Assembly: GCF_000525775.1 (NCBI RefSeq)
Contig: NZ_JALU01000004.1
Location: 124,001-188,000 of the forward strand
Length of the DNA stretch: 64,000 nt
Direction: 5' to 3'
Source: Mogibacterium timidum ATCC 33093
GTDB taxonomy: Bacteria; Bacillota; Clostridia; Peptostreptococcales; Anaerovoracaceae
The notes under the pieces were generated by a model, which saw only the letters and a list, made by a program, of their open reading frames with translations, made no database searches and was not told the origin of the DNA. The translations under genes and the position numbers were made by a program. This document shows positions 1,569-21,848 of the stretch, one piece after another; positions within the stretch are counted from its first letter, which is position 1, and each line of letters begins with the position of its first letter.

Positions 1569-1685
1569 GCTGTCGTCACGGCGATATCAGCAGGGTAGAG
1601 GCAGTATGCTTAACTCAGAGTACATAGCCGTTTGAGAAGCCCCCTCATGCGAACTATCAACAAACAACAAATTAGCAACTATAGC

Positions 1686-1728: not shown

Positions 1729-1763
1729 GTGTTATTAGCTGTGGCGTTGTGTCATATTGGTAT

Positions 1764-2291
1764 CTACCACTGTTCGCTGTGAACCTTGTCACAAGGGAAG
1801 CTTGGCAGCTTCTGCGCCTCCGGCTGCTCGTCGATGTGTCCGAGGACCAGCAGCGCTTCGAGCTTCATATTTGCAGGAGCCTTAAGTCTGGCGTTGACAA
1901 ATTCTTCAGAGCTTACACCGTCCTGGTTGGATGGACGAAGTCGTAGCTGCAGCCAAACGCTGCCTAGACCCTGTTCAGCGGCAGCGAGCAGCATATAGCT
2001 CATTGCGATGGAACTATCCTCAATATATGTATCTGTCTTGTCAGAATCCGAATAAACCGCAACAGCGACATTCGCAGTCTCAAGCATCTTAGCTCCACCC
2101 TTTCGGCTGTTAACGAGCTCCTTGAGTGTGTCCTTGTTCTTAATGACTACAAACTCCCATGGTCGTAATCCCTTGCCGTTAGGGGCAAGGAGCGCGGCTG
2201 ACAGAACTTCGTTCAGCTCCTCGTCTGTAACAGGCTGTGTGTTGTACTTACGAACGCTGCGGCGATTCTGCATAGTGTTTAATAAACCCAT
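1764..2291 (-). CDS. Nitroreductase family protein
   Basis: A 175-residue FMN-dependent nitroreductase-fold protein. The N-terminus MGLLNTMQNRRSVRKY with NRRSVRKY is the FMN phosphate-binding signature, followed by APNGKGLRPWEF, the AAAEQGLGSVWLQ helix and the C-terminal KVHSEQW typical of small clostridial members. It probably reduces quinones or nitro compounds with NAD(P)H in the cytoplasm; the natural substrate is unknown. ATG 2291 was chosen because the GTG 18 bases upstream lies inside the AAGGAAG ribosome site. It is monocistronic and converges on the lipoprotein gene. Confidence 0.85.
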   Translation of the reverse strand: MGLLNTMQNRRSVRKYNTQPVTDEELNEVLSAALLAPNGKGLRPWEFVVIKNKDTLKELVNSRKGGAKMLETANVAVAVYSDSDKTDTYIEDSSIAMSYMLLAAAEQGLGSVWLQLRLRPSNQDGVSSEEFVNARLKAPANMKLEALLVLGHIDEQPEAQKLPSFPCDKVHSEQW

Positions 2292-2401
2292 CTCAATACT
2301 TCCTTTCACATTAATTGACTACATTGTAACATGAATGTTAAAAAATGATTGAATAATTGCAAAATAAATTCAAAAACAGCATAAATTTTATGATTTGTAA
2401 T

Positions 2402-3289: not shown

Positions 3290-3469
3290 TCATCCTCTTC
3301 GTGGCTATGTTATCATCATGTATAACAAAAATCAAAATGCGTTTTTAGATAATTCGACAACAATAAAATTTTTTAATCAATAAAAAGGTTTCAATCTATT
3401 TTTTACAGGGCTTAGAAATATTGAAGAATACCATTCAGTAATGTACTATAAGATTTATGAAAGGAGTTG

Positions 3470-3505
3470 AAATTGGTTGACCGATTTTATTAAGAAATTT
3501 ATTAA
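3470..3505 (+). promoter_or_regulatory. Operator and promoter of the allB1 operon
   Basis: The imperfect palindrome AAATTGGTTGACCGATTT spans 3470-3487 with core GGTTGACC, matching its own reverse complement at 14 of 18 bases. Inside it TTGACC (3477-3482) can act as -35, with TATTAA at 3500-3505 as -10 and a 17-base spacer. A binding protein here would cover the -35 box. The word AATTGGTTGA recurs before allE and nfnA. The pairing of -35 and -10 is read from sequence; regulator binding is inference. Confidence 0.6.
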
Positions 3506-3579
3506 CCATGAAACTGTTTCATAAAGATTCTTAAGCTTCTACACATTTGATCGTAAAGGGTCATAGGAAGGGAGATTAT

Positions 3580-4953: not shown

Positions 4954-4983
4954 ACGAAATTATTTTAAAGGAGAAAAATTTTA

Positions 4984-6345
4984 ATGAGCATTGTAGATAA
5001 CAAGGTGCTCGATCCTAAGCTTGCGGCTGATGTCAATGAAGACCTACAGCCTACCAAGACACGTATCATGGGATCGCTATCTTACACAGCATCGTTCCTT
5101 GGCGGCTGTGTATCCATCGGAACATTCTCGATGGGTTCTGCACTGATTGGAGTGCTGACAATCACTCAGGCTATCCTGGCTATGGCTATCGGATGCCTCG
5201 TAATCGCTATCGCATTAGTCCTGATCGGTAACGCAGGCCACAAGTATGGTATGCCGTACGTAGTTCAGCTGAGATCCAGCTTCGGTACTGCCGGTGTCAA
5301 GATCCCCGGTGTACTGAGAGGTCTGCCGGCTATCGTATGGTTCGGATTCCAGTCATGGGTCGGAGCGGGCGCTATCAACAGCTGCTTCAAGATTCTGTGG
5401 GGAATTAACAACCTGCCGGTGGTTTTCGGTCTTTTCACACTTCTCCAGGTTGCCCTTGCGATCAAGGGCTTCCACGGAATCAAGTGGCTCGAGAACTTCT
5501 CTTGCGTATTCATCGTGGTAATTCTTGCTTATATGCTATACGTAGTTAAGACTAAGTTCGCAGTAGATATCAGCGCTTCATTTGCCGGGGTAAAGGGAAC
5601 ATGGGGAATGCCTTTCTGGGCTGCTACAACATCCTTCCTCGGAATCTATTCCACGATGATTATCAACGCTTCCGACTACTCGAGAAATCTCAAGGAGAAC
5701 ATCAAGCCGGTTAAGACCGGTTCGATTTACACGATTGCTATCCTGCCCGTAACGCTGTTCATGGGACTTATCGGACTTCTCGTTACAGCAGCAACAGGAA
5801 ATTCGGATCCTGTAGTTGTGTTCTCGACTACAATGGGCAGCAAGTTCCTTACAGTCGTAACTCTAGTATTCATCGCATTTGCTCAGGTTACAACCAACGT
5901 ACTCAACAATATCGTTCCACCGGCTTACGTGTTGATGGAGTCCTTCAAAATGAAGTGGTCGCATGCGACAGTGCTCGTAGGCATCCTCTCGGTATGCGTA
6001 ATGCCGTGGAAGCTTGTAACAGCGGATTCCGCTGCAGGACTTTCGCTGTTCACAAAGGTGTACTCGGCATTCCTGGGGCCTATCTTCGCAGTAATGGTTG
6101 TTGACTACTATCTGCTGCGCAAGAGTACACTGGATGTAAACGCGCTATATGACAAGCTGGGACCTTTCAGGGGTGTCAACTGGGCGGCAATCATCTCAAT
6201 CGCAGCAGGAGCCCTGGTATCGGTATTTGTAGTAGATCTGTCATGGTACGTCAGCCTCATTCCAACGGGTGTTGTATACTACCTGCTCATGAAGTACCTG
6301 CCGGCGTCCGGGAACTTCAGAATTGGAACTATATTTGAAGACTAA
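4984..6345 (+). CDS. NCS1-family allantoin/purine permease, copy 1
   Basis: A 453-residue integral membrane protein with about 12 hydrophobic segments. It belongs to the nucleobase:cation symporter-1 family (cytosine, purine, allantoin and hydantoin importers). Family signs are LGGCVSIGTFSMG in the first helix, GLPAIVWFGFQSWVGAGAIN and MIINASDYSRN in the central helices. It should import the substrate of the adjacent allantoinase across the cell membrane, driven by Na+ or H+. It starts 30 bases after allB1 with AAGGAG upstream. Allantoin is the likeliest substrate by context; another purine-derived hydantoin cannot be excluded. Confidence 0.8.
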   Translation: MSIVDNKVLDPKLAADVNEDLQPTKTRIMGSLSYTASFLGGCVSIGTFSMGSALIGVLTITQAILAMAIGCLVIAIALVLIGNAGHKYGMPYVVQLRSSFGTAGVKIPGVLRGLPAIVWFGFQSWVGAGAINSCFKILWGINNLPVVFGLFTLLQVALAIKGFHGIKWLENFSCVFIVVILAYMLYVVKTKFAVDISASFAGVKGTWGMPFWAATTSFLGIYSTMIINASDYSRNLKENIKPVKTGSIYTIAILPVTLFMGLIGLLVTAATGNSDPVVVFSTTMGSKFLTVVTLVFIAFAQVTTNVLNNIVPPAYVLMESFKMKWSHATVLVGILSVCVMPWKLVTADSAAGLSLFTKVYSAFLGPIFAVMVVDYYLLRKSTLDVNALYDKLGPFRGVNWAAIISIAAGALVSVFVVDLSWYVSLIPTGVVYYLLMKYLPASGNFRIGTIFED

Positions 6346-6429
6346 TCAAAAAATTAATCTATACATTATCAGGCAGAGAGCTGCGACTTGCACTCCCTGC
6401 TCTGTGTAAATAATAAGGAGGAATTAGAC

Positions 6430-7833
6430 ATGTATGATCTAATTATCAAGAACGGTAAGCTGGTTACCCCTGATCGTATTTATGAAGCGGACATAGCTGT
6501 ACAGGATGGCAAATATGCTGCATTCCTGGCTCCCGGATCAGATGCGGAAGCAGAGAAAGTCATCGATGCAAAGGGTAATCTGGTATACCCGGGAATTATC
6601 GACTGCCACGCTCACCTCAATGAGCCGGGATTCGACTACCGGGAGGATTTTGAGACAGGGTCAAGAGCTGCTGCAGTTGCAGGCTGCACAACACTGATCG
6701 ATATGCCTCTTAACAATGATCCTTCGCTCATGAACAAGGAAATCTTTGACCTCAAGATGAGCAGGATCAGCAAACACTCGTACATCGACTTCGGTCTATG
6801 GGGTGGAATTGTAGGAGATTTCGATGACAATCCTGATTCGGTACATAACAACCTCGCTGATCTCGAGGACCTCGAGCAGGCAGGTGTTGCTGCATTTAAA
6901 GGCTTCACTTGCCCTAACGGACCGCTGTTCCCTACAGTTAACATGGGTAACGTTCGTGAGGCTCTCGAAATCCTGAGGCCGTACAACGCGCTCTGCGGAT
7001 TTCACTGCGAGGAGTATGGTCAGGTTCTGGAGAGAGAGAAGAAGGCTAAGGCTATGTCCGGTCGGTCAGGACGGGAAAAGATCAGAGCGTTCCTGGATTC
7101 CCACGATGTATGGACAGAGTACGTAGCAACTAAGAATGTAATCGACATGGCTAGAGCTACGGGCGGAAGAGTTCACATCTGCCACGTAAGCCATCCAATG
7201 GTTGCACAGGTTGTAAAGGAAGCTCAGCACGAGGGACTTCCTATCACAGCCGAGACTTGCCCACACTACCTCGGATTCTCTGAGGACTTCGTATTTGAGA
7301 AAGGTGGTCCGGCTAAGTGTACACCTCCTCTAAGAACCAAGGAAGACGTAGAGAAGCTGTGGGATTACGTCCTTGACGGAACTCTATCATGCGTTGGTAG
7401 TGACCACTCACCTGCTGCAGACGAGGAGAAGGACAACGAAACAAGAGACATTTGGCAGGCCTGGGGCGGACTTAACGCCATCCAGTTCTTCCTGCCAATG
7501 ATGTTCGACATGGTTGTACATCAGAAGAAGCTGAGCCCAAGCCTGATTGCTCGGGTTATGGATTACAATCCTGCCAAGGTATTTGGATTCTACGGACAGA
7601 AGGGTGCATTTGAAATCGGCTTTGATGCCGATGCTGTAATCGTCGATCCGGAGAAGGCGTGGAAGGTTGATCAGACTAAGCTGTTCACCAAGGGACACGT
7701 AACGTGCTTCGACGGTCTGGAAGGAAAGGGCTCTCCAACATGCACTGTTATCCGCGGGCACGTTGTAGCTAAGGACGGTATGTACCTCGAAGAGGCTAAG
7801 GGCTATGGAGAGTATGTAACGCCTGTTAAGTAA
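6430..7833 (+). CDS. Allantoinase / hydantoinase paralogue, copy 2
   Basis: A 467-residue amidohydrolase clearly paralogous to the copy at 3580-4953 (both start MYDL-IKNG and share HAHLN-PG, CHVSHP, AETC-HYLGF and SDHSP blocks). All metal ligands including the Lys in AAFKGF are kept, so it should be active. It differs by an extra loop around IVGDFDDNPDSVHNNLADLE, so its ring substrate could differ (allantoin enantiomer, another hydantoin or dihydropyrimidine). ATG 6430 has AAGGAGG 8 bases upstream; an earlier frame-compatible ATG at 6388 lacks a ribosome site. It is followed after 32 bases by its own permease paralogue. Confidence 0.8.
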   Translation: MYDLIIKNGKLVTPDRIYEADIAVQDGKYAAFLAPGSDAEAEKVIDAKGNLVYPGIIDCHAHLNEPGFDYREDFETGSRAAAVAGCTTLIDMPLNNDPSLMNKEIFDLKMSRISKHSYIDFGLWGGIVGDFDDNPDSVHNNLADLEDLEQAGVAAFKGFTCPNGPLFPTVNMGNVREALEILRPYNALCGFHCEEYGQVLEREKKAKAMSGRSGREKIRAFLDSHDVWTEYVATKNVIDMARATGGRVHICHVSHPMVAQVVKEAQHEGLPITAETCPHYLGFSEDFVFEKGGPAKCTPPLRTKEDVEKLWDYVLDGTLSCVGSDHSPAADEEKDNETRDIWQAWGGLNAIQFFLPMMFDMVVHQKKLSPSLIARVMDYNPAKVFGFYGQKGAFEIGFDADAVIVDPEKAWKVDQTKLFTKGHVTCFDGLEGKGSPTCTVIRGHVVAKDGMYLEEAKGYGEYVTPVK

Positions 7834-7865
7834 TAGTTGCTGAATATTAAAGGGAGAACAAAGTA

Positions 7866-9239
7866 ATGAGTACAGAAAATAAAAACGTAAATGCCCCGGA
7901 GACCGAGGGTGAAAGCATTAAGCCGATTCCTTGGGAAAAACGTACCATGAGCTGGGGGTCTAACACGATGCTGTGGCTCGGCGGTTGTATTTCAATCGGA
8001 ACTCTCGCTCAGGGATCTGCGCAGATTGAGACAGGACTTAACCTTCTGCAGCTCTTCCTGGCAGTGCTGCTTGGATCTACTATTCTGGTAGTTGGCATCG
8101 CCATGAATGACCAGTTCGGATACAAGACCGGTGCTCCGTATTCGATTCACCTCAAGAGTGCATATGGTACAAAGGGTAACATCCTGCCATCGATGATCAG
8201 AGGACTGCCTGCCATCGTATGGTACGGATATCAGACATGGCTCGGTGGTGCAGCTATCAACAACATCGCGAAGCTGCTCTTTCACTATGACAACATCTGG
8301 CTGTTCTTCATCCTTTTCCAGGTCGTTCAGATCCTTCTATCTATTAAGGGCTTCAAGGGTGCAAAGTGGGTTGGAAACATCGGTGGTACAGTGATTGTCA
8401 TCGCCATGTTCTACCTCCTTCACATCTGCGTAACAACTCAGTGGGATGTAATTTCTACTAACCTGATGCACAAGAGCGGCACATGGGGCATGCCGTTTGT
8501 TGCTGCTATCATCGCATTCTTCGGTAACTCAACAACGGTAATGCTCAACGCTTCTGACTATTCGCGTGAAATGAAGCAGGGCTACAGTGCTCCGGTGCGC
8601 GGCATCTCATACTTTGTGGCTATGGTTCCGGCAACGGTAATGCTCGGCGTTATCGGGGCAATGGCATCCACAGCAACAGGAATTGCTAACCCAATCAATG
8701 CGTTTGCTGCTATGGTTGACAACAAGGTCGTTCTTATTGTCACACTTGCGTTTATCATCTTTGCTCAGCTATCGACGAACCTTGCAAGCAACGTAATTCC
8801 ACCGGCATATGTATTCATGGATACTTTTAAGATGAAGCATAGGACTGCAGTGATCCTCATCGGAATCATCGCAGTTGCAACTTGCCCGTGGATTCTGACT
8901 AACGACAGCTCCGCAGCAGGACTTGCACTCTTTGTTAAGGTATACTCGGCGTTCTTTGCGCCTATCTTCGCTATCCTTATCGTAGACTATTTCATACTGC
9001 ACAAGAGGAACTTCACCAAGGAACAGCTCGATGATCTGTATGATCCTGAGGGTTCAAAAAAAGGTATCAACATGGCAGCTATCATTGCCACAATCGTTGG
9101 CTGTGTAATCGGGCTGCTCGACGTAAACCTCTCATTCTTTACGGCTACTATTCCAACAGGAATCGTATACTATCTGTTAATGAGAAACATGAAGTCTTGC
9201 GATAACTTCAGAAAGGGAACAACCCTTGAGAAGAAGTAG
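7866..9239 (+). CDS. NCS1-family permease, copy 2
   Basis: A 457-residue, ~12-helix NCS1 symporter paralogous to the protein at 4984-6345. Shared blocks include LGGCISIGTLAQGSA, GLPAIVWYGYQTWLGGAAIN, MLNASDYSR and the C-terminal IPTGIVYYLLM. The amphipathic N-terminus is longer and acidic. It ends the first operon, 20 bases before a terminator. The two permeases differ most in the substrate-side helices, which fits distinct specificity or affinity, but this cannot be settled by reading alone. Confidence 0.8.
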   Translation: MSTENKNVNAPETEGESIKPIPWEKRTMSWGSNTMLWLGGCISIGTLAQGSAQIETGLNLLQLFLAVLLGSTILVVGIAMNDQFGYKTGAPYSIHLKSAYGTKGNILPSMIRGLPAIVWYGYQTWLGGAAINNIAKLLFHYDNIWLFFILFQVVQILLSIKGFKGAKWVGNIGGTVIVIAMFYLLHICVTTQWDVISTNLMHKSGTWGMPFVAAIIAFFGNSTTVMLNASDYSREMKQGYSAPVRGISYFVAMVPATVMLGVIGAMASTATGIANPINAFAAMVDNKVVLIVTLAFIIFAQLSTNLASNVIPPAYVFMDTFKMKHRTAVILIGIIAVATCPWILTNDSSAAGLALFVKVYSAFFAPIFAILIVDYFILHKRNFTKEQLDDLYDPEGSKKGINMAAIIATIVGCVIGLLDVNLSFFTATIPTGIVYYLLMRNMKSCDNFRKGTTLEKK

Positions 9240-9296: not shown

Positions 9297-9407
9297 TATA
9301 CGTGCGTTTTCATATATCATATAGTCATGCAGGGCATTAAGATATATAGTATTCATAAGATGTCACTATGGCATGTAAATTTGGTTAAAGGAAGCAGGGT
9401 GGAACAT

Positions 9408-10220
9408 ATGAAGAGGAGACTAGCAAATCTGACTGAGATAGAACAGCTTGATTACTTGGTAGATGTATTCAAGTCGGAATCTGCACAATACAGTGGGCTT
9501 GAAACACCTGATGATGTAATCGGCAAAAGGCGCCTGCTGCGTTCGCTCATGAACGTGCGCATGCCGCGTCACCTGGACGATATGGCTCTGCAGATACAAA
9601 ATGAATATCTGCAGTCGAGAGCGAAGAAGCACGGCGTGGTGGAGCTGCACGATATTCCTATTAGAGAAGGTGTGATTTCAATATGGCAAGGGGATATAAC
9701 GCGACTTGCGGCAGATGCGATTGTAAACGCTGCAAATTCACAGATGCTCGGCTGTTTTATTCCTATGCACACGTGTATTGACAACTGCATACATACCTTT
9801 GCAGGGGTGCAGCTTAGAGAAGAGTGCAACAGACAGATGAATCGACTGAGGGTGATGTATGGGAGCGATTATGAACAGCCGACAGCGGTTCCGATGCTGA
9901 CCGGCGGTTACAATTTGCCGGCGAAGAAGGTTATTCATGTGGTCGGACCCATTGTGCAATTCGGACTGACATCAGAGCTGGAGCAAGCGCTTGCCGACTG
10001 CTACGCTAACGTATTAAATATGTGTCTGGAAAATGACATAAAAAGCGTTGCCTTCTGCTGCATCTCAACAGGAGTATTTCATTTTCCGAACAGGAGGGCG
10101 GCAGAAATTGCGGTTGCCACTGTTAAAGAGTGGTTGTCGGAGCACCCGGGGGCGATGGAACGGGTGATTTTTAACGTATTTAAGGACGAGGACAGAGAGT
10201 ATTATGAACAATGCATTTGA
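9408..10220 (+). CDS. Zinc-type macrodomain protein (probable ADP-ribosyl hydrolase)
   Basis: A 270-residue protein with a ~75-residue helical N-terminal extension followed by a macro domain (from WQGDITRLAADAIVNAANS). The segment LGCFIPMHTCIDNCIH is the signature of the zinc-containing macrodomain class, whose studied members remove ADP-ribose from proteins; in some Firmicutes and fungi these genes pair with a sirtuin and lipoylation genes. No such partner is visible here. ATG 9408 was preferred because GGGTGG lies 5 bases upstream; an in-frame ATG at 9327 adds 27 atypical residues. It is a single-gene unit lodged between two allantoin operons. Confidence 0.8.
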   Translation: MKRRLANLTEIEQLDYLVDVFKSESAQYSGLETPDDVIGKRRLLRSLMNVRMPRHLDDMALQIQNEYLQSRAKKHGVVELHDIPIREGVISIWQGDITRLAADAIVNAANSQMLGCFIPMHTCIDNCIHTFAGVQLREECNRQMNRLRVMYGSDYEQPTAVPMLTGGYNLPAKKVIHVVGPIVQFGLTSELEQALADCYANVLNMCLENDIKSVAFCCISTGVFHFPNRRAAEIAVATVKEWLSEHPGAMERVIFNVFKDEDREYYEQCI

Positions 10221-10350: not shown

Positions 10351-10395
10351 GTTATAGGTTATAGGTTATAGGTTATAGGTTATAGGTTATAGGTT
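10351..10395. repeat. Heptamer tandem repeat (GTTATAG)6
   Basis: Six exact copies of GTTATAG plus a partial seventh. The right end runs into the 3' end of the leftward hydrolase gene: that gene's TAA stop (10387-10389 on the minus strand) lies in the sixth unit. Copy number is likely to vary by slippage. Confidence 0.95.
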
Positions 10396-11250
10396 GTTTT
10401 CTATGAAATCAGATGTCTTACTTAACAGATCCTTTGTCGCAGGGTCGTCGGTATTTCTGTCAAAATCGTGTGCATGGATCGAAACGATGAACTTCTCGGG
10501 CTTGTACTTATTGCACAATGAGATGAACTCGCTATACGGTACATCGGTGTCGCCTGTGCTGTGTGCTGCAAATACAGGTGCAGGCAGAGAATCGACCGTT
10601 CTGAGCGTGTAATACAGGAAGAAAAATTTATCGCGCCCCTCGTAGATCAAGTCCTTCCATCTTCCGGTCTGCCTGGCATATACGTAAGTGCTGTAGTACT
10701 CGTCGAGTGCGCCGCTATATATAGCTTCCTGCCTATCAGTCTTAGCCATCTCTGCGGGAACAGCCGGGAGCTGACTATAAAATGCACTTGGTGCATCGTA
10801 CCATCCATCGTTCAAAAATCCGTATCCATAGTACGAAATTATTCCGTTCAGTTTAACCGTAAGCTTGTCATTTACAGAAGAGAGCAGGGCGAGATAAGCG
10901 CCTGCCGAGCGGCCCCATACGAAGAGAGGCAGGCTGTCAGCCAGATCTGCAGCTTTGAAGCTCTTGTTGATAGAATCAACTATATCTTCCAGTATCGCAT
11001 CAATTTTCGCCTGTGGTGCGAGCGGGTAGTCGATCGCTAATATGGCATATCCCGTACTTGTAAATTTCTCTACATGCATCTTCGGCAGATCCTCCGGTGT
11101 TCCGTAGAGTAGACCTCCCCCGTGTATGTATACGAGCAGAGCCTTCGGATCAATTTCATCTGAATAATACAAAATAAAATTTCTGCCATCAGAACCTTTG
11201 CCGGTTTTTAACCTGTTCTTAGCTGTTGAAATCTTCCTGATAGTTACCAT
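10387..11250 (-). CDS. Alpha/beta hydrolase (esterase/lipase-like)
   Basis: A 287-residue cytoplasmic alpha/beta hydrolase with no signal peptide. The oxyanion motif YIHGGG is near residue 40, the nucleophile elbow GRSAG near 115, the acid in STGDTDVPY near 235 and the catalytic His in SIHAHDFDR near 260. HGGG and GxSxG place it in the hormone-sensitive-lipase/acetyl esterase group. The substrate is unknown. It is oriented against the allantoin operons and has its own transcript. Its stop codon lies in the heptamer repeat, so slippage there could change the extreme C-terminus (FIENNL). Confidence 0.75.
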   Translation of the reverse strand: MVTIRKISTAKNRLKTGKGSDGRNFILYYSDEIDPKALLVYIHGGGLLYGTPEDLPKMHVEKFTSTGYAILAIDYPLAPQAKIDAILEDIVDSINKSFKAADLADSLPLFVWGRSAGAYLALLSSVNDKLTVKLNGIISYYGYGFLNDGWYDAPSAFYSQLPAVPAEMAKTDRQEAIYSGALDEYYSTYVYARQTGRWKDLIYEGRDKFFFLYYTLRTVDSLPAPVFAAHSTGDTDVPYSEFISLCNKYKPEKFIVSIHAHDFDRNTDDPATKDLLSKTSDFIENNL

Positions 11251-11636: not shown

Positions 11637-12422
11637 ATGAGTTATTTAAACAATAATACCGGTTACAGAGAGTCGCTTTTAGACACCAGATCCGTTTTTA
11701 AGAAAGAGAATTATGTAATTCTAGAACCGGACGGTCTTGTTAAGAATGCAATTCCCGGATATGAGAACTGCGATACAACTATTCTCGGTTCGCCTGCAAT
11801 GGGAGCATCTTTTGCAGATTATATCTCGACAGTTCACCCGGGTGGCAAGAACGAGAGGATCGGTGGAGAAGGAATCGAGGCTTTCATGTATGTTATCAGC
11901 GGAGAGCTCACAGTTAAGAACGCTGATGAAGAAGCAACTCTTACAAAGGGTGGATATATCTTCTCACCGGCTGATAAGCCGTTCCGCTTCGAGAACAAGA
12001 GCGGCGAGGACGCTTTTGTTTACATTTACAGGAGAAGATACGTTGCTGTTGAAGGTATGTCGGCTCATACAGTTGTTGCAAATATTAACGACGTTGACTG
12101 GATGGACTACGAGGGCATGACAAACTGCCAGAGCAAGGACTTTCTCCCTGCAGCTAAAGACTTTGGCTTTGATATGAATATGCATATCCTAAAATTTGCT
12201 CCGGGAGCATGCCACGGATATATTGAAACTCACATCCAGGAGCACGGAATGTACTTCCTACAGGGTAAGGGAATGTACAGACTGGACAATGAGTGGATTC
12301 CGCTACAGAAGGGTGACTACGTATTCATGGATTCTTACGTACCTCAAGCTTGCTACGGTGTAGGTACCGAGGACTTCATCTACATTTACTCAAAGGACTG
12401 CAACAGAGACGTTGAGCTGTAA
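11637..12422 (+). CDS. allE: (S)-ureidoglycine aminohydrolase
   Basis: A 261-residue bicupin, the same length as E. coli AllE, that removes ammonia from (S)-ureidoglycine to give (S)-ureidoglycolate. The N-terminus SYLNNNTGYRESLL and C-terminus YIYSKDCNRDVEL match the family almost end to end. The metal-binding cupin (residues ~170-250) shows ETHIQEH with Glu/His/His ligands, preceded by FDMNMHIL and SPADKPFRFE in the first cupin. It is first gene of the second allantoin operon, with GGAAGAGAGG before ATG 11637 and an operator-like site 56 bases upstream. Confidence 0.93.
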   Translation: MSYLNNNTGYRESLLDTRSVFKKENYVILEPDGLVKNAIPGYENCDTTILGSPAMGASFADYISTVHPGGKNERIGGEGIEAFMYVISGELTVKNADEEATLTKGGYIFSPADKPFRFENKSGEDAFVYIYRRRYVAVEGMSAHTVVANINDVDWMDYEGMTNCQSKDFLPAAKDFGFDMNMHILKFAPGACHGYIETHIQEHGMYFLQGKGMYRLDNEWIPLQKGDYVFMDSYVPQACYGVGTEDFIYIYSKDCNRDVEL

Positions 12423-12526: not shown

Positions 12527-13579
12527 GTGAAACTATCAAGAGAAGAGCTTAAGGGCTTGATGAAGGACAAGCTCATGCAGGCAGGTCTGCATGAGGATGA
12601 TGCAGAGACAACGTCGGAGGTTCTTACATGGGCACACGAGAGAGGTTACTATTCCCATGGTGCTGTAAGAGTAGAGTACTACAGTGAGAGAATCGCAAAG
12701 GGCGGTATTACTGCAGAGCCTAATATGACTTGGAAGGAAACAGGCCCTTGCTCCGGAATCCTCGACGGTGACAATGGAATTGGGTTCACTGTTGCTAAGA
12801 AGGGCATGGAGAAGGCTATCGAAATGGCTAAGAAGAACGGAATCGCAGTTGTCGGAATGTCCAACCTTTCACACTCCGGTTCTATCGGCTACTATACAGA
12901 GATGGCAGCTGATGAGGATCTATTGGCAATTTCATTCTGCCAGTCGGATCCAATGGCAGTTCCTTATGGTGGCGCTGAGCCTTATTACGGCACAAACCCA
13001 ATGTCATTTGCAGCTCCGACAGCTGACGACAGGAAGGTAGTATTCGATATGGCTACTACAGTTCAGGCTTGGGGAAAGATCCTCGACAAGCGATCCAAGC
13101 ATCAGGAAATTCCGGCGGACTGGGCGGTAGATGAGGACGGCGCTCCTGTAACTGATCCGCACAAGGTCAACGCTCTTAATCCAATCGCCGGAGCTAAGGG
13201 CTATGGACTGATGATGCTGGTTGACGTATTCTCCGGGATCCTTCTGGGAGTTCCTTTCGGCGGACATGTAAGCTCTATGTATCACGACCTTTCTGAGGGC
13301 AGAAGACTGGGGCAGATGCATATTGTAATGGATCCGGAGAGATTTGTAGGCGCAGACGCCTTTAAGAAGGCTATGGCACAGTGCCTGGACGAGCTTGATG
13401 CTATTAAGCCTGCTCCGGGATTCGACAAGGTTAATTACCCCGGGGAGAGAGCTAAGGCCAGAATGGATAAGGCTTATGCAACAGGCGGTCTGGACGTCGC
13501 TGACGAGCTGGTAGAGTACTTGAAGGGGGAGCCCGTTCACTTCAATAGATACGATCACAAGAATAGATTTGCTGACTAA
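12527..13579 (+). CDS. allD: (S)-ureidoglycolate dehydrogenase
   Basis: A 350-residue NAD(P)-dependent oxidoreductase of the malate/L-sulfolactate (LDH2) family that oxidises ureidoglycolate to oxalurate. Diagnostic parts are the SHG motif near residue 44, MSNLSHSGSIGYY with the second catalytic His near 120, YYGTNPMSFAAPT, and the glycine-rich KGYGLMMLVD. E. coli AllD is 349 residues. The start is GTG 12527 with GGAGG 7 bases before it. It supplies the reduced cofactor that the nearby NfnAB pair could reprocess. It is followed after 21 bases by the AllFG fusion. Confidence 0.92.
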   Translation: MKLSREELKGLMKDKLMQAGLHEDDAETTSEVLTWAHERGYYSHGAVRVEYYSERIAKGGITAEPNMTWKETGPCSGILDGDNGIGFTVAKKGMEKAIEMAKKNGIAVVGMSNLSHSGSIGYYTEMAADEDLLAISFCQSDPMAVPYGGAEPYYGTNPMSFAAPTADDRKVVFDMATTVQAWGKILDKRSKHQEIPADWAVDEDGAPVTDPHKVNALNPIAGAKGYGLMMLVDVFSGILLGVPFGGHVSSMYHDLSEGRRLGQMHIVMDPERFVGADAFKKAMAQCLDELDAIKPAPGFDKVNYPGERAKARMDKAYATGGLDVADELVEYLKGEPVHFNRYDHKNRFAD

Positions 13580-13600: not shown

Positions 13601-16600
13601 ATGCTGAAGACAATTGTGAAAGCAGGAAGCTACCATGATTCTGTTACACTGATGCTTCTCACCAATGCTGTTTCAACAGTTGATGGCGTCAATAAGGTTT
13701 CCATCATGATGGCAACTCCGGCTAACAAGGATATTTTTAAGCAGAGTGGACTTGAGACTGAGGAGTTGATGAATGCAACGGCTAACGACATGGTTGTAGT
13801 TGCCGACGTAGACGACGAGAGCGTGCTGGATCCCCTTATGGATAAGGTTGACGAGTACTTTGCCAAGGAAGCTAACGCCAATAAGAAGGGCGAAGAAAAC
13901 AAGTCAGCTAAGAGCTGGGAGCAGGCTCTCAGCCGGATGCCGGATGCTAACCTGGCCGTAATCTCCATCCCGGGAGCTTATGCTGCACTCGAAGCCGAGA
14001 GAGCGCTGGATGAGGGGATGAACGTATTCATGTTCTCCGATAACGTAACAATTGAGGATGAGAAGAAGATTAAGGATAAGGCACACGAGAAGGGGCTCGT
14101 TGTAATGGGCCCTGACTGTGGCACCGGGATCATCCGGAGTGTGCCGATCGCATTCACTAACACTGTAAATCCCGGTTCAATCGGTATCATCGGTGCATCA
14201 GGTACCGGTATCCAGGAGCTGACGACTATCATAGATAGGCTTGGTGAGGGTGTTACAAATGCTATCGGTACCGGCGGTCGTGACCTCTCCGAGGAAGTCG
14301 GCGGAACTACTATGATGGACGTCATCGATGCTATGGAGAAGGATCAGACAGTTAAAGTGCTTGTGGTTATCTCTAAGCCGCCGGCTAAGGCTGTCAGAGA
14401 CAGAATCGCCGCCAGACTCAGCGTTTACAGCAAGCCTGTTGTATGCCTGTTTCTCGGCGAGAAGCCGGAGTACTACGAGGAAGGCCTATATCAGACCTAT
14501 ACGCTCGATGAGTGCGCGCGTCTCGCTGTTAGCCTGGTGAGAGGGCGGAAGGTTGCTGAAGGAGCTGTAGAGTGCGATAAGTCCAAGTTCTTTAAGGCTG
14601 AGGACAAGAAGACCATCAAGGCTTACTACTCCGGCGGTACTCTTGCAGGCGAAGCTGCAATGATGATCAAGGATGCTCTGGCGTTCACTGATAATACTCA
14701 CAAGGATGGATTTAAACTCAACCACAAGGGGCACGTCGTTATCGACCTCGGTGATGACATGTACACTCAAGGCAAGCCACATCCAATGATCGACCCAACC
14801 AAGAGAGTTGAGTGCATGGCAGAGGCTATGGATGATCCGAGCACAGGCGTTATCCTGTTCGACGTAGTTCTCGGATACGGTTCACATGACGATATGGCCG
14901 GGGCTCTGATTCCGGCTGTTGAGACTCTCAAGAAGAAGGCTGCAGAGCAGAACAGAGAGATATTCTTTGTTGCAGAGGTTTGTGGAACCAGAAATGACTA
15001 TCAGGGATACGATGAGTCCGTTAAGAAGCTTCAGGCTGCAGGGGTAATCGTGGCAGAGACCAATAAGCTTGCTGTTGAGACTGCAATCGAAGCAATCGGA
15101 TACAGGTTTACGGAGGAGCACAAGGAGACTCGGCCTAAGGAAGTTAAGGACTTCACTCCGGCTGAACCATCAGAGAAGCTGCTCTTTATGCTCGCTAATA
15201 AGCCAAAGGTTATCAACATTGGCCTTAGGAGCTTCGCAGAAGTAACTGCCAAATTCGGATGCGATGTTGTTCAATATGACTGGATGCCACCGGCAGGCGG
15301 AAACCTCGAGTTAATCAAGGCTCTCAACTTCCTCAGAAATTATGAAGATATTGACATTGACGAGGCTAACCGCGAGGTTATAGCTAAGGTCGTTGCTGCG
15401 CAGCCGGTGCTCAAGGATAATGTTCCGGCTATGGCAGTAATTCCTCAGCTTAATGAGAATAACGGAAAGGTTATTCTTCACGCCGGTCCGCCAATCGAGT
15501 ACAAGGATATGCCCGCAACAGTTCAAGGCTCTTGTGTAGGTGCTGTGCTCTTTGAGGAGTGGGCAGATAACGAAGCTGACGCCCGTAAGCTTCTCGAGTC
15601 CGGCGAGATTAAGTTCATCCCATGCCATCACTGCAATGCAGTAGGGCCTATGGGAGGAATCACAACTCAGCACATGCCTGTATTCGTAGTACAGAACGAG
15701 ACTGACGGTAATTATGCTTACTGCCAGATGAACGAGGGTATCGGAAAGGTACTGAGATTCGGAGCTTATTCGGAAGAGGTTGTTAACAGACTGAGGTGGA
15801 TGAGAGATGTACTCGGTCCTACACTGGGAAGAGCACTCAGAAGTCTTGAAGGCGGACTCAGAGTGAACCCGCTGATTGCTAAGGCAATTGCAATGGGAGA
15901 CGAGTTCCACCAGAGAAACATCGCTGCTTCTCTCTGCTTCCTCAAGGAGATGGCTCCAATCGTAACAGACATGGATATGCCGGAGGAAGAGAAGTCACAG
16001 GTCATCAAGTTCCTCGCTGATACAGATCAGTTCTTCCTCAATGTAATGATGGCTACAGGCAAGTCCATCATGGATGGAGCCGGAACACTTACAGAGGGAA
16101 CTGTTGTTACTGCAATGTGCAGAAACGGAGTGAACTTCGGCATCCGCATCGCAGGTATGGGAGACGAGTGGTTCACCGGACCGGTTAACACCCCGCAGGG
16201 TCTATACTTTACCGGATATGACGGTGAGGATGCTTGCCCGGATATCGGTGACAGCGCTATCACTGAGACAGTAGGTGTAGGTGGGATGGCCATGATTGCT
16301 GCTCCGGCCGTAACAAGATTTGTCGGAGCCGGCGGATACGAGGATGCTCTCAGCACATCAAACGAGATGACAGAGATCACAATAGATAGAAATCCTAACT
16401 ACATTATTCCTAATTGGAACTTCACAGGTACATGCCTTGGAATCGATGCAAGACTCGTGGTTGAGAAAGGAATCACGCCTGTAATCAATACAGGGATTGC
16501 GCACAAGATTGCCGGATTCGGACAGATTGGTGCCGGAACAGTACATCCGCCAATTGAAGCATTTGAAAGAGCTGTACTTGCTTACGCCAAAAAGCTTGGT

Positions 16601-16612
16601 TACGAAGGTTAA
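13601..16612 (+). CDS. Fused AllF-AllG (FdrA + YlbE/DUF1116), oxamate carbamoyltransferase
   Basis: A 1003-residue protein joining two families that are separate genes in E. coli. Residues 1 to ~580 are FdrA/AllF, a succinyl-CoA-synthetase-like fold (VVMGPDCGTGI, IGIIGASGTGIQELT, GTGGRDLSEEVGG) ending in the FdrA C-terminal block VINIGLRSFAEV...PPAGGN. Residues ~581-1003 are YlbE/AllG, DUF1116 (ILHAGPPIEYKDM, FIPCHHCNAVGPMGGIT, NEGIGKVLRFGAY, MGDEFHQRNIA, GIAHKIAGFGQIGAGTV). There is no stop, frameshift or ribosome site at the join (about base 15340). With AllH it should convert oxalurate + phosphate to oxamate + carbamoyl phosphate. It starts 21 bases after allD; carbamate kinase follows. 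Confidence 0.9.
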   Translation: MLKTIVKAGSYHDSVTLMLLTNAVSTVDGVNKVSIMMATPANKDIFKQSGLETEELMNATANDMVVVADVDDESVLDPLMDKVDEYFAKEANANKKGEENKSAKSWEQALSRMPDANLAVISIPGAYAALEAERALDEGMNVFMFSDNVTIEDEKKIKDKAHEKGLVVMGPDCGTGIIRSVPIAFTNTVNPGSIGIIGASGTGIQELTTIIDRLGEGVTNAIGTGGRDLSEEVGGTTMMDVIDAMEKDQTVKVLVVISKPPAKAVRDRIAARLSVYSKPVVCLFLGEKPEYYEEGLYQTYTLDECARLAVSLVRGRKVAEGAVECDKSKFFKAEDKKTIKAYYSGGTLAGEAAMMIKDALAFTDNTHKDGFKLNHKGHVVIDLGDDMYTQGKPHPMIDPTKRVECMAEAMDDPSTGVILFDVVLGYGSHDDMAGALIPAVETLKKKAAEQNREIFFVAEVCGTRNDYQGYDESVKKLQAAGVIVAETNKLAVETAIEAIGYRFTEEHKETRPKEVKDFTPAEPSEKLLFMLANKPKVINIGLRSFAEVTAKFGCDVVQYDWMPPAGGNLELIKALNFLRNYEDIDIDEANREVIAKVVAAQPVLKDNVPAMAVIPQLNENNGKVILHAGPPIEYKDMPATVQGSCVGAVLFEEWADNEADARKLLESGEIKFIPCHHCNAVGPMGGITTQHMPVFVVQNETDGNYAYCQMNEGIGKVLRFGAYSEEVVNRLRWMRDVLGPTLGRALRSLEGGLRVNPLIAKAIAMGDEFHQRNIAASLCFLKEMAPIVTDMDMPEEEKSQVIKFLADTDQFFLNVMMATGKSIMDGAGTLTEGTVVTAMCRNGVNFGIRIAGMGDEWFTGPVNTPQGLYFTGYDGEDACPDIGDSAITETVGVGGMAMIAAPAVTRFVGAGGYEDALSTSNEMTEITIDRNPNYIIPNWNFTGTCLGIDARLVVEKGITPVINTGIAHKIAGFGQIGAGTVHPPIEAFERAVLAYAKKLGYEG

Positions 16613-16701: not shown

Positions 16702-17634
16702 ATGGCAAAGAAGATTGTCATCGCGCTGGGTGGAAATGCACTTGGCAACACAGTTGATGAGCAGCGTGAAGCAGTTGCTCATACTGCGGAGGTTATCGTA
16801 GACCTCATCGCAGAGGGGCACGATTTAATCGTTACACACGGAAACGGTCCACAGGTCGGAATGATTCAGAATGCTATGGATGCTCTTGCAGCAGCTAATG
16901 GCGGATATGGAGCAGTACCACTGCCTACAAGCGTTGCTATGTCACAGGGATACATTGCAATCGACCTTCAGAACGCTATCAAATACGAGCTCAAGAAGAG
17001 AGGAATGGATAAGAAGGTATCTTCCATTATCTCACAGACACTCGTTGACCCGGCCGATGAAGCATTCAAGAACCCTACCAAGCCAATCGGCAGATTCCTC
17101 ACTAAGGAAGAGGCTGATAAGCTGGCTGCTGAAGGAATTTCAATAGCCGAGGATGCCGGCAGGGGCTACCGCAAGGTTGTTGCTTCCCCAATGCCGCTCA
17201 AGATCTGTGAGCTGGGAACGATTAAGACGCTTGCTGATGCGGGTCATGTTGTGATCACTTGCGGCGGTGGCGGAATCCCGGTATTTGATGAGGGCGGAAA
17301 ACTCGTAGGCGCTGAGGCTGTGATCGATAAGGATAATGCATCAAGTCTTCTTGCCAGAGAACTTGGAGCTGATTACTTAGTAATTCTGACTGCTGTGGAA
17401 AAGGTTGCTATCAACTTCGGTAAGACAAACCAGGAATGGCTGTCTGATCTGTCAATCGAGCAGGCTAACAGGTATATCGCTGAAGAGCAGTTCGCCAAGG
17501 GTTCAATGCTTCCCAAGGTTGAGGCAGCTATTCGTTTCGCTGAGTCGGGCGAAGGCAGAAATGCTCTCATCACACTCCTTGAAAAGGCTAAGGAAGGAAT
17601 TAACGGAGAGACAGGAACAGTTATTCACAAGTAA
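16702..17634 (+). CDS. allK: Carbamate kinase
   Basis: A 310-residue carbamate kinase that transfers phosphate from carbamoyl phosphate to ADP, yielding ATP, CO2 and ammonia. This is the energy-conserving step of the island. Family signs are VIALGGNAL at the N-terminus, THGNGPQVG near residue 50, GYRKVVASP near 155, CGGGGIPV near 210 and the acidic-lysine KDNASSLLARELGAD near 235. Amino-acid sequence alone does not separate AllK from arginine-deiminase ArcC; the position between the oxamate carbamoyltransferase gene and allC supports AllK. No arginine deiminase or ornithine carbamoyltransferase is nearby. Confidence 0.92.
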   Translation: MAKKIVIALGGNALGNTVDEQREAVAHTAEVIVDLIAEGHDLIVTHGNGPQVGMIQNAMDALAAANGGYGAVPLPTSVAMSQGYIAIDLQNAIKYELKKRGMDKKVSSIISQTLVDPADEAFKNPTKPIGRFLTKEEADKLAAEGISIAEDAGRGYRKVVASPMPLKICELGTIKTLADAGHVVITCGGGGIPVFDEGGKLVGAEAVIDKDNASSLLARELGADYLVILTAVEKVAINFGKTNQEWLSDLSIEQANRYIAEEQFAKGSMLPKVEAAIRFAESGEGRNALITLLEKAKEGINGETGTVIHK

Positions 17635-17685: not shown

Positions 17686-19299
17686 ATGAACATACCTGTT
17701 AATTTCGCGATGTGGGGCATGGCGATGCTCCCGATTATTATATTAATAGTTTTAATGATTAAATTCCACTGGGGTGCTACTGAAGCCGCCCCGGTCGGTT
17801 TGCTTGTAACAATTCTTTCTGCACTAACCTTTTATAAGGCTCCGGCTCATCTGGTCGCTGTGGAGAGTGCCAAAGGTGTATGGAGCTCTCTGGTGATCCT
17901 GTTGATTATCTGGACAGCGATCCTCCTGTATCAGGCCGGACAAGAGGCAAACGCCTTTCTTGTCATCAAGAATGAACTCAGTAAGCTTATTCCTAATGAG
18001 CTGCTGCTGATACTTGCACTTGGATGGGTATTTGTCAGCTTTCTACAGGGAATTACCGGCTTTGGAGTTCCGGTAGCGGTGGTCGCTCCGCTGCTTATAG
18101 GCATCGGTGTCAGGCCAATCTATGCAGTTGCAATTCCTCTGCTGGGACAGGCTTGGGGAAATACCTTCGGTACACTCGGTGCCGCGTGGGATGCACTCGC
18201 AGATGCGTCCGGATTAAAGGCCGGGAGTGCGGAATATTTCAAGGCTGCGTTCTGGGCTGCGGTATTCCTGCTGGCATGGGATTTTATTACAGGCCTGATT
18301 ATCTGCTGGTTCTACGGCAAGGGCAAGGCGGTGCGCAAGGGCTTACCTGCAGTGCTGGCTCTGACTGCAGCAGGTGGAGCTGGCGAGCTCGTTCTCAGCC
18401 AGATTAATACCACTTTAAGCAACTTTATCCCTGCAGTAATCGCACTGGTGCTGGTTATGCTGCTCGGCAGAATGAAGCTGTACAACACAGATTGGAAGCT
18501 TGAAGAGTCTCCAATTATGGAACGGGTAGAGCCTGCAGCTGCAGCCGACAGCTATATTCCTAAGGATATGTCGCTGATCCAGGCCTTCATGCCATACCTG
18601 CTGTTATCCGTTATGACGTTCGTTGTTCTGGCCGTTAAGCCAATCAACGAGATGCTGGGTCGGTTTAAGATAGGAATTGTCGTACCTGAGACGCGTACCG
18701 GCTATGGTATTGTAAATGCGGCAAGCGACAGCTATTCGCCTGTTGCTATATTTACGCAGGCCGGCATGTTTCTGTTTCTTGCTGCGATTATTGCGCTTGC
18801 GTACTACAAGAGTAAGGGCTGGATCAAGACAGGTGGAATCAGGAACGCATTTGCGAACTCGATTTCAATGACGATGCCATCAGGTATGGCCGTAATCGGA
18901 CTGGTAATCATGTCCAAAATTATGGGTGGAACGGGACAGACGATCGTTCTGTCGCAGGGAATTGCAAATGTGCTCGGCAGCAAGTATCTACTGTTGGCAC
19001 CGTTCGTCGGACTGCTCGGAACATTTATGACTGCAAGCAACATGAGCTCAAACATTCTGTTCGGCGGATTCCAGGTTACAACGGCGCAGTTGCTCCACGT
19101 TTCAGCAGCAGGTGTATTGGGTGCACAGACTGCCGGCGGAGCCATAGGAGCTGCAGTGAGCCCAAGCAAAATCATCCTCGGAACTACTACGGCAAATATT
19201 CTCGGGAAAGAGGGCGAAGTGCTTAGGCTATTGCTGACTATAACCATTCCGGCAACGATTTTGATAGGAGCTTTCCTGTTCATAGTATTTGGACTATAG
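17686..19299 (+). CDS. L-lactate permease (LctP) family transporter
   Basis: A 537-residue membrane protein with about 13 hydrophobic segments and the LctP signature region FLQGITGFGVPVAVVAPLLIGIG near residue 125 and LGQAWGNTFGTLGAAWDA. The family moves small hydroxy- and oxo-monocarboxylates (lactate, glycolate) with protons. It lies inside the allantoin operon, 51 bases after carbamate kinase. Oxamate, the expected end product, is a structural analogue of pyruvate and lactate, so an oxamate exporter is the attractive reading; import of glycolate, glyoxylate or lactate is the alternative. Family assignment is firm, the substrate is inference. Confidence 0.85.
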   Translation: MNIPVNFAMWGMAMLPIIILIVLMIKFHWGATEAAPVGLLVTILSALTFYKAPAHLVAVESAKGVWSSLVILLIIWTAILLYQAGQEANAFLVIKNELSKLIPNELLLILALGWVFVSFLQGITGFGVPVAVVAPLLIGIGVRPIYAVAIPLLGQAWGNTFGTLGAAWDALADASGLKAGSAEYFKAAFWAAVFLLAWDFITGLIICWFYGKGKAVRKGLPAVLALTAAGGAGELVLSQINTTLSNFIPAVIALVLVMLLGRMKLYNTDWKLEESPIMERVEPAAAADSYIPKDMSLIQAFMPYLLLSVMTFVVLAVKPINEMLGRFKIGIVVPETRTGYGIVNAASDSYSPVAIFTQAGMFLFLAAIIALAYYKSKGWIKTGGIRNAFANSISMTMPSGMAVIGLVIMSKIMGGTGQTIVLSQGIANVLGSKYLLLAPFVGLLGTFMTASNMSSNILFGGFQVTTAQLLHVSAAGVLGAQTAGGAIGAAVSPSKIILGTTTANILGKEGEVLRLLLTITIPATILIGAFLFIVFGL

Positions 19300-19543: not shown

Positions 19544-20785
19544 ATGGAAATTGAAATGGTAACAGGAAGAATCGCTCAGAATCTTGAGCATCTTAAGAGA
19601 TTTACTGCAACACCTGATGCCGGATGCACAAGACTTCCTTTCACGAAGGAGGCTCGTAAGGCTGTAGATTATCTCAAGCAGGAGATGGAGTCTATCGGTT
19701 TGGAGGTTAAGGAAGATGCAGCCGGAAACGTATTTGGTATACTGAAAGGAACTGATGCTTCACTTCCTTGCGTTATGACCGGTTCGCACTTCGATTCGGT
19801 GCTCCACGGCGGTAACTACGATGGGATCGGCGGAGTAATTTGCTCCATGGAGGTTGCCAGACAGATTGTAGACATGGGACTCGAGCACAAGAGAGATCTA
19901 GTTGTAGTCGGATTCATGGATGAAGAGGGAATGAGATTTGGAACAGGTTACTTCGGCTCCGGTGCTATACTCGGTCACAGAGATGCGTCATATACAAGGC
20001 AATTTGCTGATATTAACGGTGTAACGATCGCAGAGGCCATGAAGGAGTACGGTCTGGATCCGGATAAGCTTGAGGACGCTAAGTGGCCGGATGGATCGAT
20101 CGGCAGCTTCGTAGAGGCTCACATCGAACAGGGTCCGGTATTAGACCAGAAGCAGATTGAGCTCGGTCTTGTTACAGGTATCGTAGGTATCCAGAGATAT
20201 ATGGTGACAATCCACGGAAGAGCCGACCACGCAGGTACAACCCCAATGGATATGAGACTCGATGCAGCAGATGCAGCAGCTAAGGTTATCTCCAAGATCG
20301 CTGATTGGGCTAGAGAGAAGGCTGACGGTACAGTTGCTACGGTTGGTCTGATTAAGGTTCCAAACGGCGGGATGAACATTGTTGCTGAGCAGGTTGAATT
20401 CACAGTTGACATTCGTTCGATGAACAATGACAATATTAATGATATCGCAAATAGAATTAAGGCGGCTCTTACTCGTGAGTGCAAGATTATGGGCGGAACC
20501 TACGAGATCGATACTAAGCTTGTCATCACACCGGTAGAGCTCAACAGCTCAATGCTTGATATACTGGAGGATTCCTGCAAGAAGAGAGGGTATTCTTACA
20601 TGAGACTGCCAAGCGGTGCAGGCCACGACTCTCTTGAGATAGGGCAGCAGCTTCCTACAGTGATGGTGTTTGTACCGAGCAAGGATGGAAGAAGTCATAC
20701 GCCGGTTGAGTTCAGCAAGTACAGCGACCTGGCTAAGGCGTCGGTACTGATGACAGATCTAATTGCGGAGCTGCTCAACAAATAG
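19544..20785 (+). CDS. allC: Allantoate amidohydrolase
   Basis: A 413-residue M20-family metal-dependent amidase of the AllC / hydantoinase-carbamoylase group. It hydrolyses allantoate to (S)-ureidoglycine, CO2 and ammonia. The binuclear metal ligands appear in order: the His in GSHFDSV and Asp in NYDGIGG (~residue 95), DEEGMRFG (~128), HIEQGPVLD (~193) and AGHDSLE near the C-terminus (~365). HAGTTPM and FTVDIRS mark the dimerisation/lid domain. It is placed late in the operon although it acts second in the pathway. AGGAGG overlaps the stop of the preceding small gene. Confidence 0.9.
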   Translation: MEIEMVTGRIAQNLEHLKRFTATPDAGCTRLPFTKEARKAVDYLKQEMESIGLEVKEDAAGNVFGILKGTDASLPCVMTGSHFDSVLHGGNYDGIGGVICSMEVARQIVDMGLEHKRDLVVVGFMDEEGMRFGTGYFGSGAILGHRDASYTRQFADINGVTIAEAMKEYGLDPDKLEDAKWPDGSIGSFVEAHIEQGPVLDQKQIELGLVTGIVGIQRYMVTIHGRADHAGTTPMDMRLDAADAAAKVISKIADWAREKADGTVATVGLIKVPNGGMNIVAEQVEFTVDIRSMNNDNINDIANRIKAALTRECKIMGGTYEIDTKLVITPVELNSSMLDILEDSCKKRGYSYMRLPSGAGHDSLEIGQQLPTVMVFVPSKDGRSHTPVEFSKYSDLAKASVLMTDLIAELLNK

Positions 20786-20822: not shown

Positions 20823-21848
20823 ATGGTAGATGGTAGATATAATTCTGCCTTCAAGAGAAACAACATCAGGACATTGAGGCGCGCTCTCAAGATGACACAA
20901 AAGGAGTTCATAGACTACTTCCTGTGCAAGCGAGACGATAAGCCGTTGATGAGCATTGCCACACTCTCCAACCTTGAATCAAAGGGCGGAGAGCGTGTCA
21001 ACGAGGTTGTCAGTTCAGTTTGTGCTAAGCTCCAGATAGACACGATGCTATTCTCCCTCAATCCGGATGAGTTTATGAAGGAGATCGAGAAATATCTGGC
21101 AGAACACAAAGAGAACGAAGAACTATTACGAGGCATTGAGAAGAAGGGCAGTATCAGCAAGCTTGTAAATCGTCTTACGATGTATTTTGCAGACGAGATG
21201 CTCGAAGGTAGATTGAAGCGTGGCGATCAGATAGAATCCGACCGTGAGCTGGCTCGAAAGCTGGGCGTAGGCAGATCTGCAGTCAGAGAATCGCTCAAGG
21301 TACTGGACGTACTGGGCATGATCGATATTCGACTTGGTCAGGGTACGTATATCTCGAGCCGTGAGACTAATTTCTTCTCTATCCCCTTATCGTGGTCGCT
21401 TTTCCTGGATGGTGATCAGGTCGACAGCATCCTGACTGTCAGATCGATTCTTGAGGTTAAATCAGCAGAGCTGGCAGCACAGTGCGAGGATCAGGTTAAG
21501 CTTGACAGACTGGCTGAAATCTATAGTCGCATGGAACACACCTTCGCTAACTGCGATATCAATAAAAACGCGCAGGCGGCGCTCAAGGAAACGCTGGATG
21601 AAGATATTGATTTCCACACATGTATCGCGGAATGTTCAGGTAATCAGATAATCCTATCCATGCTAAGAACTATCAGGAACTTCTTGCAGAGAGTCAGCGG
21701 CACAGGCATGGTAGAGCCCAATCAGATTTCTGCAGTTCTGGTTGAGCATAAGAAGCTGTTTGATGCAATAATGTCGAAGGATTCAGAGGCGGCAGCTAAG
21801 GCAATGCAGAATCACCTAAATGAATCGAGCTTGCGTTATGATCTGTGA
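20823..21848 (+). CDS. XRE-like + GntR/FadR (FCD) fusion regulator
   Basis: A 341-residue transcription factor with two DNA-binding segments. Residues ~10-70 (RTLRRALKMTQKEFIDYFL, SIATLSNLESKG) look like an XRE-type helix-turn-helix. Residues ~110-180 are a GntR winged helix (GDQIESDRELARKLGVGRS, RESLKVLDVLGMIDIRLGQGTYI). The rest is an all-helical FCD ligand domain with Asp/His residues (DIDFHTCIAECSGN) typical of metal/carboxylate-binding FadR-group proteins. As last gene of the allE operon it is the obvious regulator of the island and of the GGTTGACC-type sites. An N-terminal XRE domain on a GntR protein is unusual. The inducer is unknown; allantoate, ureidoglycolate or oxalurate would fit. 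Confidence 0.8.
   Translation: MVDGRYNSAFKRNNIRTLRRALKMTQKEFIDYFLCKRDDKPLMSIATLSNLESKGGERVNEVVSSVCAKLQIDTMLFSLNPDEFMKEIEKYLAEHKENEELLRGIEKKGSISKLVNRLTMYFADEMLEGRLKRGDQIESDRELARKLGVGRSAVRESLKVLDVLGMIDIRLGQGTYISSRETNFFSIPLSWSLFLDGDQVDSILTVRSILEVKSAELAAQCEDQVKLDRLAEIYSRMEHTFANCDINKNAQAALKETLDEDIDFHTCIAECSGNQIILSMLRTIRNFLQRVSGTGMVEPNQISAVLVEHKKLFDAIMSKDSEAAAKAMQNHLNESSLRYDL

Follow-up and report, generated by a model that had tools for sequence, protein, structure and literature searches.

The closest described system is the oxamate carbamoyltransferase (OXTCase, or oxamic transcarbamylase) of Escherichia coli, formerly FdrA-YlbE-YlbF, which in the accessible part of its description is formed by AllF, AllG and AllH together, all three proteins being required (Kim and Kim 2024, PMC11326118), in agreement with the statement in a sequence-only reading of the present locus that AllF and AllG are both needed together with YlbF. 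The same part of that source predicts, on the basis of a gel, that AllF and AllG are equally abundant, which was not seen on western blot, and reports that assembly of the subunits could not be modelled (PMC11326118). As the sequence-only reading also states, allF and allG are separate genes in E. coli: in K-12 they lie 9 bases apart and are followed by ylbF and ybcF. A second E. coli set, YahEFG with YahI, whose function is uncharacterised, comprises three paralogous subunits and a carbamate-kinase-like protein.

In the window, by which we mean the whole 64,000-nucleotide stretch of Mogibacterium timidum ATCC 33093 DNA analysed here, both large subunits are encoded as one chain (Table 1). Its gene is, as the sequence-only reading had described it, a single uninterrupted frame: 1003 codons at 13601-16612 (+), running from ATG to stop with zero internal stops; read in that register, the reverse strand contains several. 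That the frame joins AllF to AllG is borne out by BLASTP, with E. coli K-12 AllF matching fusion residues 1-579 at 40% identity and K-12 AllG matching residues 585-1000 at 57%. Pfam places CoA_binding at residues 191-285, Ligase_CoA at 342-496 and AllG at 670-885 (PF06545, 317 bits), the NCBIfam FdrA model NF004760 covers residues 1-578 with 700 bits against a cut-off of 433, and two PDB sequences align as well, 3dmy (E. coli FdrA) with residues 90-580 and 3clq (Enterococcus faecalis) with residues 586-994. The fusion is the sole AllG in the 1.8 Mb genome. No carbamoyl-phosphate-binding domain of the aspartate/ornithine transcarbamylase superfamily appears among the Pfam and NCBIfam matches of the 1003-residue protein (E <= 0.001; sequence profiles only), and the E. 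coli enzyme is likewise reported to be unrelated to that superfamily (PMC11326118). The locus resembles E. coli AllFGH further in that carbamate kinase follows, allD and allE lie alongside and a distant AllH is encoded in the genome; it differs in that the E. coli chains are separate and the module introduced below ends AllF, whereas the window has one chain, with AllH some 10 kb from it and on the opposite strand. Of the fixed 1:1 AllF:AllG contact anticipated from the sequence, the stoichiometry is set by the single chain. The accompanying division into two domains at about residue 580 stands for the AllF and AllG parts, but its AllF end hides a separable module of about 47 residues (534-580), and the junction near 15340 marks the end of that module, not of the AllF core.

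Table 1. Features of the fused gene and of the surrounding allantoin cluster, in window coordinates.
Feature	Coordinates	Strand	Basis
AllH (DUF2877), genome's only copy	2402-3289	-	PF11392 above cut-off; 27% to E. coli AllH
Allantoinase	3547-4953	+	TIGR03178 above cut-off
Second allantoinase	6388-7833	+	TIGR03178 above cut-off
Macro-domain protein, protein-ADP-ribose hydrolase model, inside the allantoin cluster	9327-10220	+	NF003163 above cut-off
AllE, (S)-ureidoglycine aminohydrolase	11637-12422	+	TIGR03214 above cut-off
AllD, ureidoglycolate dehydrogenase	12527-13579	+	TIGR03175 above cut-off
Fused allF-module-allG gene, 1003 aa; predicted OXTCase large subunit	13601-16612	+	Frame, Pfam, NCBIfam, BLASTP
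AllF (FdrA) core, aa 1 to ~510; CoA_binding and Ligase_CoA	13601-15130	+	Pfam, NCBIfam, fold; end of core taken from alignments
Mobile module, aa ~534-580	15200-15340	+	Junction alignments, profile, E. coli AllF end / YahG start
AllG (YlbE, DUF1116) core, aa 584-1003, with stop	15350-16612	+	Pfam, 3clq Z 52.5, BLASTP
Carbamate kinase (AllK role)	16702-17634	+	TIGR00746 above cut-off
Lactate-permease-family transporter, candidate oxamate exporter	17686-19299	+	PF02652
Allantoate amidohydrolase-like (AllC role)	19544-20785	+	NF006771 above cut-off

We consider it highly probable that this gene encodes a covalent AllF-module-AllG subunit of OXTCase working with AllH. The genome carries an AllF subunit, an AllG subunit and AllH, as well as an allantoin cluster in which AllD and carbamate kinase are encoded. 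What it lacks is a division of AllF and AllG into two chains, a trait of the founding enzyme and not of the chemistry. In the proposed scheme the fusion and the separately encoded AllH would interconvert oxalurate and phosphate with oxamate and carbamoyl phosphate, from the last of which the neighbouring carbamate kinase would go on to form ATP; AllF, to judge from its fold, would offer a phosphate site like that of the succinyl-CoA synthetases, with the module lying between the AllF and AllG cores, joining them and helping to complete a shared active site. Both the activity of the fusion and its need for AllH are what we infer from the sequence, and the AllH-dependent reading meets one counterpoint: AllH is distant (27%), about 10 kb off, and found in 19 of 40 fully flanked fused loci, a count that may be too low because the relatives' flanks span 9 kb and an AllH placed as in the window would escape them. 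The other neighbours recur in these 40 loci as carbamate kinase (36), AllD (35), AllC (35), AllE (33) and an LctP-family permease (33).

The junction holds a third module, which the sequence-only reading had missed. In alignments across it, residues ~534-580 are consistently part of neither core; they carry the motif N-x-G-x3-F ... W-x-P-x-A-x-G, whose N, G, F, W and P are conserved in 97-99% of 134 modules, the A in 91% and the last G in 94%, and in the fusion a spacer of a few residues joins them to AllG. In E. coli the same module is the C-terminus of AllF but the N-terminus of YahG, not the C-terminus of the AllF-like YahF: YahG, whose genes are separate and which falls in another clade than the window fusion, aligns with fusion residues 531-1000 at 42% identity. 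In many two-gene loci neither AllF nor AllG carries the module, and a small frame in the allF-allG gap encodes it instead. All 136 AllF cores with at least 400 aligned residues in long loci have a module in the locus (shorter AllF frames, such as that of L173, were excluded, and the duplicates L166=L048, L191=L028, L192=L073, L201=L084 and L202=L049 reduce the 136 to 131 distinct cores): in 76 it is part of one chain with AllF and AllG, in 20 it opens AllG, in 17 it closes AllF, and in the others it is a free gene, downstream of allF in 22 and upstream of it in 1 (L187). The free module follows allF even where allG precedes allF (L189, L190, L193 and L196). Across the family the module acts like an independent component, fused to AllF, to AllG, to both as in the window, or free as a protein of about 57 residues, the last in many genomes of the window's phylum.

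Among 24 free frames, 23 encode proteins of 56-63 residues, with the start chosen by the best upstream match, and the start in L187 is ambiguous; 5-6 of 6 Shine-Dalgarno bases are matched in 14 frames, 4 in nine and 3 in one, a score that is merely supportive because the starts were picked by it. Furthermore, pN is below pS in 274 of 274 pairs compared, where pS is near saturation in most pairs and the closest carry the weight (L170/L173, for example, with pS 0.67 and pN 0.11). As a control, 46,102 frames gave 203 module matches of at least 15 bits, only four of them away from a same-strand AllG, and these four, in L189, L190, L193 and L196, follow allF. Five free modules and the window's own have no Pfam match above cut-off; the five match best to positions 498-555 of the 555-position NCBIfam FdrA model, scoring below its whole-protein cut-off as expected of a tail, and their weak sub-threshold Pfam and NCBIfam matches (B12-binding, Pre-PUA_NSUN2, transaldolase and two others) were disregarded. 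In some databases, short proteins go by the name "fdrA domain protein".

The module also keeps company with AllG across genomes. In a phylum sample of 348 genomes, a profile built from 27 modules, some of them from these genomes and so matching by construction, gave 55 matches in 49 genomes, all 49 of them AllG-bearing; the profile matched in 0 of 296 AllG-less genomes, and three of 52 AllG-bearing ones (G464, G641 and G758) have no module match, the AllG and module draws being taken as the same 348 genomes. By frame, 32 of the 55 matches have AllG's own frame length, 17 are free (56-83 codons, in 15 genomes), two are fused and four lie in other long frames, three of which are AllF and the fourth in G473. 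In a sample of Gammaproteobacteria the module occurs in 3 of 229 genomes.

We lean, with some reserve, towards a model in which AllFGH and YahEFG enzymes have four components, the ~57-residue module being an obligate subunit that would complete the active site between AllF and AllG; its place between the two and its active-site role are suggested by its changing attachment and its conserved loop. Were this so, the module would be supplied free in trans, tethered to AllF or to AllG, or, as in the window, built in as a single-chain hinge. A module that changes partners points to the AllF-AllG interface, and the natural one-chain protein, present in dozens of genomes and 1:1 by construction, is a ready structural target; with the module and its free form the interest grows, as the assembly of a newly assigned enzyme becomes directly testable. 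It is also important to note that cloning "AllF" and "AllG" alone from a free-module genome omits a gene of ~57 residues beside allF and could give an inactive enzyme.

From an alignment of 49 fused sequences, AlphaFold2 models the fusion with a mean pLDDT of 87.1 and a pTM of 0.80; the module block reaches pLDDT 84-93 and is modelled as a strand (536-540), a helix (543-551), a second strand (555-559), the W-x-P-x-A-x-G loop and a final helix (569-579). The AllG part superposes on 3clq with Z 52.5 and rmsd 2.0, while residues 99-567 match 3dmy with Z 32.7 but an rmsd of 19 A, so that the parts are placed differently and the domain arrangement is unsure. Residues 12-318 share the fold of succinyl-CoA synthetase alpha and NDP-forming acyl-CoA synthetases (Z about 16, rmsd mostly 2.4-3.5), as does the Ligase_CoA domain (Z about 11-13). 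In contrast to these synthetases, OXTCase requires no CoA and no nucleotide for its reaction, and no counterpart of AllG, AllH or the module is known in succinyl-CoA or acyl-CoA synthetases. When fragment 320-590 is folded alone, its Ligase_CoA domain remains confident and aligns with 3dmy over that domain only (fragment residues 3-182, rmsd 2.1), whereas the module drops to pLDDT 50-74; although the input alignments of the two folds differ somewhat, the module thus seems to gain its modelled confidence from AllG or the N-terminal domain. Module-core coevolution across 123 loci (Neff about 60) gave a weak, phylogeny-prone signal in which no module pair block is clearly enriched among the top scores.

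In an alternative account, the module is the mere C-terminal end of the AllF domain, detached in some lineages by gene fission or a moved stop and with no role beyond folding on AllF. That account draws on the position of the free modules, 22 of 23 lying directly downstream of allF, the allG-first loci included, and on the E. coli AllF crystal 3dmy, which aligns up to its own residue 542, inside the module. It sits less well with the 20 of 136 AllF loci in which the module is the N-terminus of AllG, with the 32 of 55 matches of the phylum sample in which it shares AllG's open frame, with its upstream position in L187, and with the loss of modelled confidence once AllG and the N-terminal domain are removed, as read from those somewhat different alignments. 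We regard it as a serious possibility, if a somewhat doubtful one.

A second alternative concerns the substrate: the fused enzyme could have a different ureido acid as its substrate, and the same may hold for the uncharacterised YahEFG paralogues. The family is large, many relatives of AllG group with YahG or in other places in a tree of 101 rows, and in the Chloroflexota loci L068 and L071, the two with full flanks, no allantoin genes lie near the fusion, with allD, allE and carbamate kinase all absent; fused relatives of this type may have a substrate that differs from that of the window enzyme. For the window itself the idea is unlikely, given that allE, allD, the fusion and carbamate kinase follow directly on one another there and that the fusion falls in the clade of E. 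coli AllG, and we retain oxalurate as the predicted substrate.

As to how common the fusion is, a scan of species genomes gave 169 relatives; the 79 best loci, all from separate records, were kept, and as best matches to a fused query these are biased to fused forms. The junction is crossed in one open frame in 70 of the 79 (L054, cut at a contig start, among them), spanning Lachnospiraceae, Anaerovoracaceae, Pasteurellaceae and Chloroflexota, and nine have two-gene forms (Bacillus, Enterococcus and Lactobacillaceae). In samples drawn evenly and judged by frame length, the window's family has frames of ~1000 residues with AllG in 5 of 148 genomes (6 have AllG over the cut-off), the family of L012, Lachnospiraceae by record name, in 14 of 299 (18 with AllG) and the Pasteurellaceae in 9 of 140 (17 with AllG); fused-length frames make up 3 of 24 matches in a class sample of 291 genomes, and across the phylum they occur in only 2 of 348 genomes, 52 of which have AllG. 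A full AllF was confirmed by fetching for some of these frames only, for example L190-L192, L201 and L202. The fusion is widespread among the closest loci, although across the phylum it is a minority form. We hold it to be effectively excluded that errors of assembly or sequencing produced it, or that it is peculiar to one lineage: nine relatives do have two genes at the junction, and a missed stop or frameshift near 15340 had been flagged beforehand, but 70 of 79 related loci, drawn from separate records and from several phyla, read through the junction without a break, and ~1000-residue frames recur in the Lachnospiraceae and Pasteurellaceae samples. The fusion is real and natural, yet recurrent, and taken alone it is a modest variant.

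The history of the attachment was read from a tree of AllG cores (101 rows, module columns excluded), in which the fusion, with the main fused group, falls with E. coli AllG, apart from YahG (100/100). The attachments are clustered on this tree, yet several changes are needed, which number 3 for the fused state, 8 for the module at the N-terminus of AllG, 6 for the free state and 5 for the C-terminus of AllF, with a total of 11 changes once rows lacking a located module are dropped; a tree of AllF cores also gives 11, but its alignment may include module columns, and the AllG tree is hence preferred. Twelve of the 101 rows were labelled "NOLINK": for nine (L151, L187, two of L189, two of L190, L193, L196 and the second row of L203) the module was later located elsewhere in the locus, and in L177, L184 and L204 the stretch fetched holds neither module nor AllF. 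The three fused changes speak against a single origin of the fused state. L182 carries a fused AllF-AllG frame (950-4198) in a distant clade, with the contig ending inside AllG, and probably represents a second, independent fusion. Within the main clade the two-gene forms of Enterococcus, Lactobacillaceae and Bacillus nest among fused rows, which suggests that they arose by a later split of a fused gene; one clade of fused rows within this main clade is not rejected by the AU test (p-AU 0.081, 45 rows). The Pasteurellaceae loci L022, L049 and L084 lie within a fused clade of 20 rows (100/100), the rest of which are Bacillota by record name or come from the window's class, and together with L086 they hold the fused cluster in a largely Clostridia gene order; because of this placement and the largely shared order, horizontal transfer of the cluster to Pasteurellaceae is likely.

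The sequence-only reading knew of no characterised fused form, and a literature search likewise found none: among the matches listed, no paper on an AllF-AllG fusion or a free module was found, most subscription papers and bioRxiv being outside the search. Neither subject is treated in the accessible parts of PMC11326118, PMC3364942, PMC8550087, PMC4016543 and PMC12625717.

The surrounding cluster offers further observations. The LctP-family permease gene at 17686-19299 has a relative in 33 of the 40 fused loci with full flanks, versus 0 of 7 two-gene loci with full flanks; because oxamate resembles lactate and pyruvate, its product may export oxamate, a role for which the literature search found no paper. 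Two genes for allantoinases and two for NCS1 transporters are arranged in alternation at 3547-9239 (+), and like genes are found in many relatives. An antiparallel alpha/beta hydrolase gene lies at 10387-11250 (-), and 66 of the 79 allantoin-cluster loci have a relative of it, some at just 31-37% identity. Finally, the regulator encoded at 20823-21848 (+) fits GntR/FCD-type models in its C-terminal part, from residue ~112, and its first ~110 residues look like another helix-turn-helix domain.
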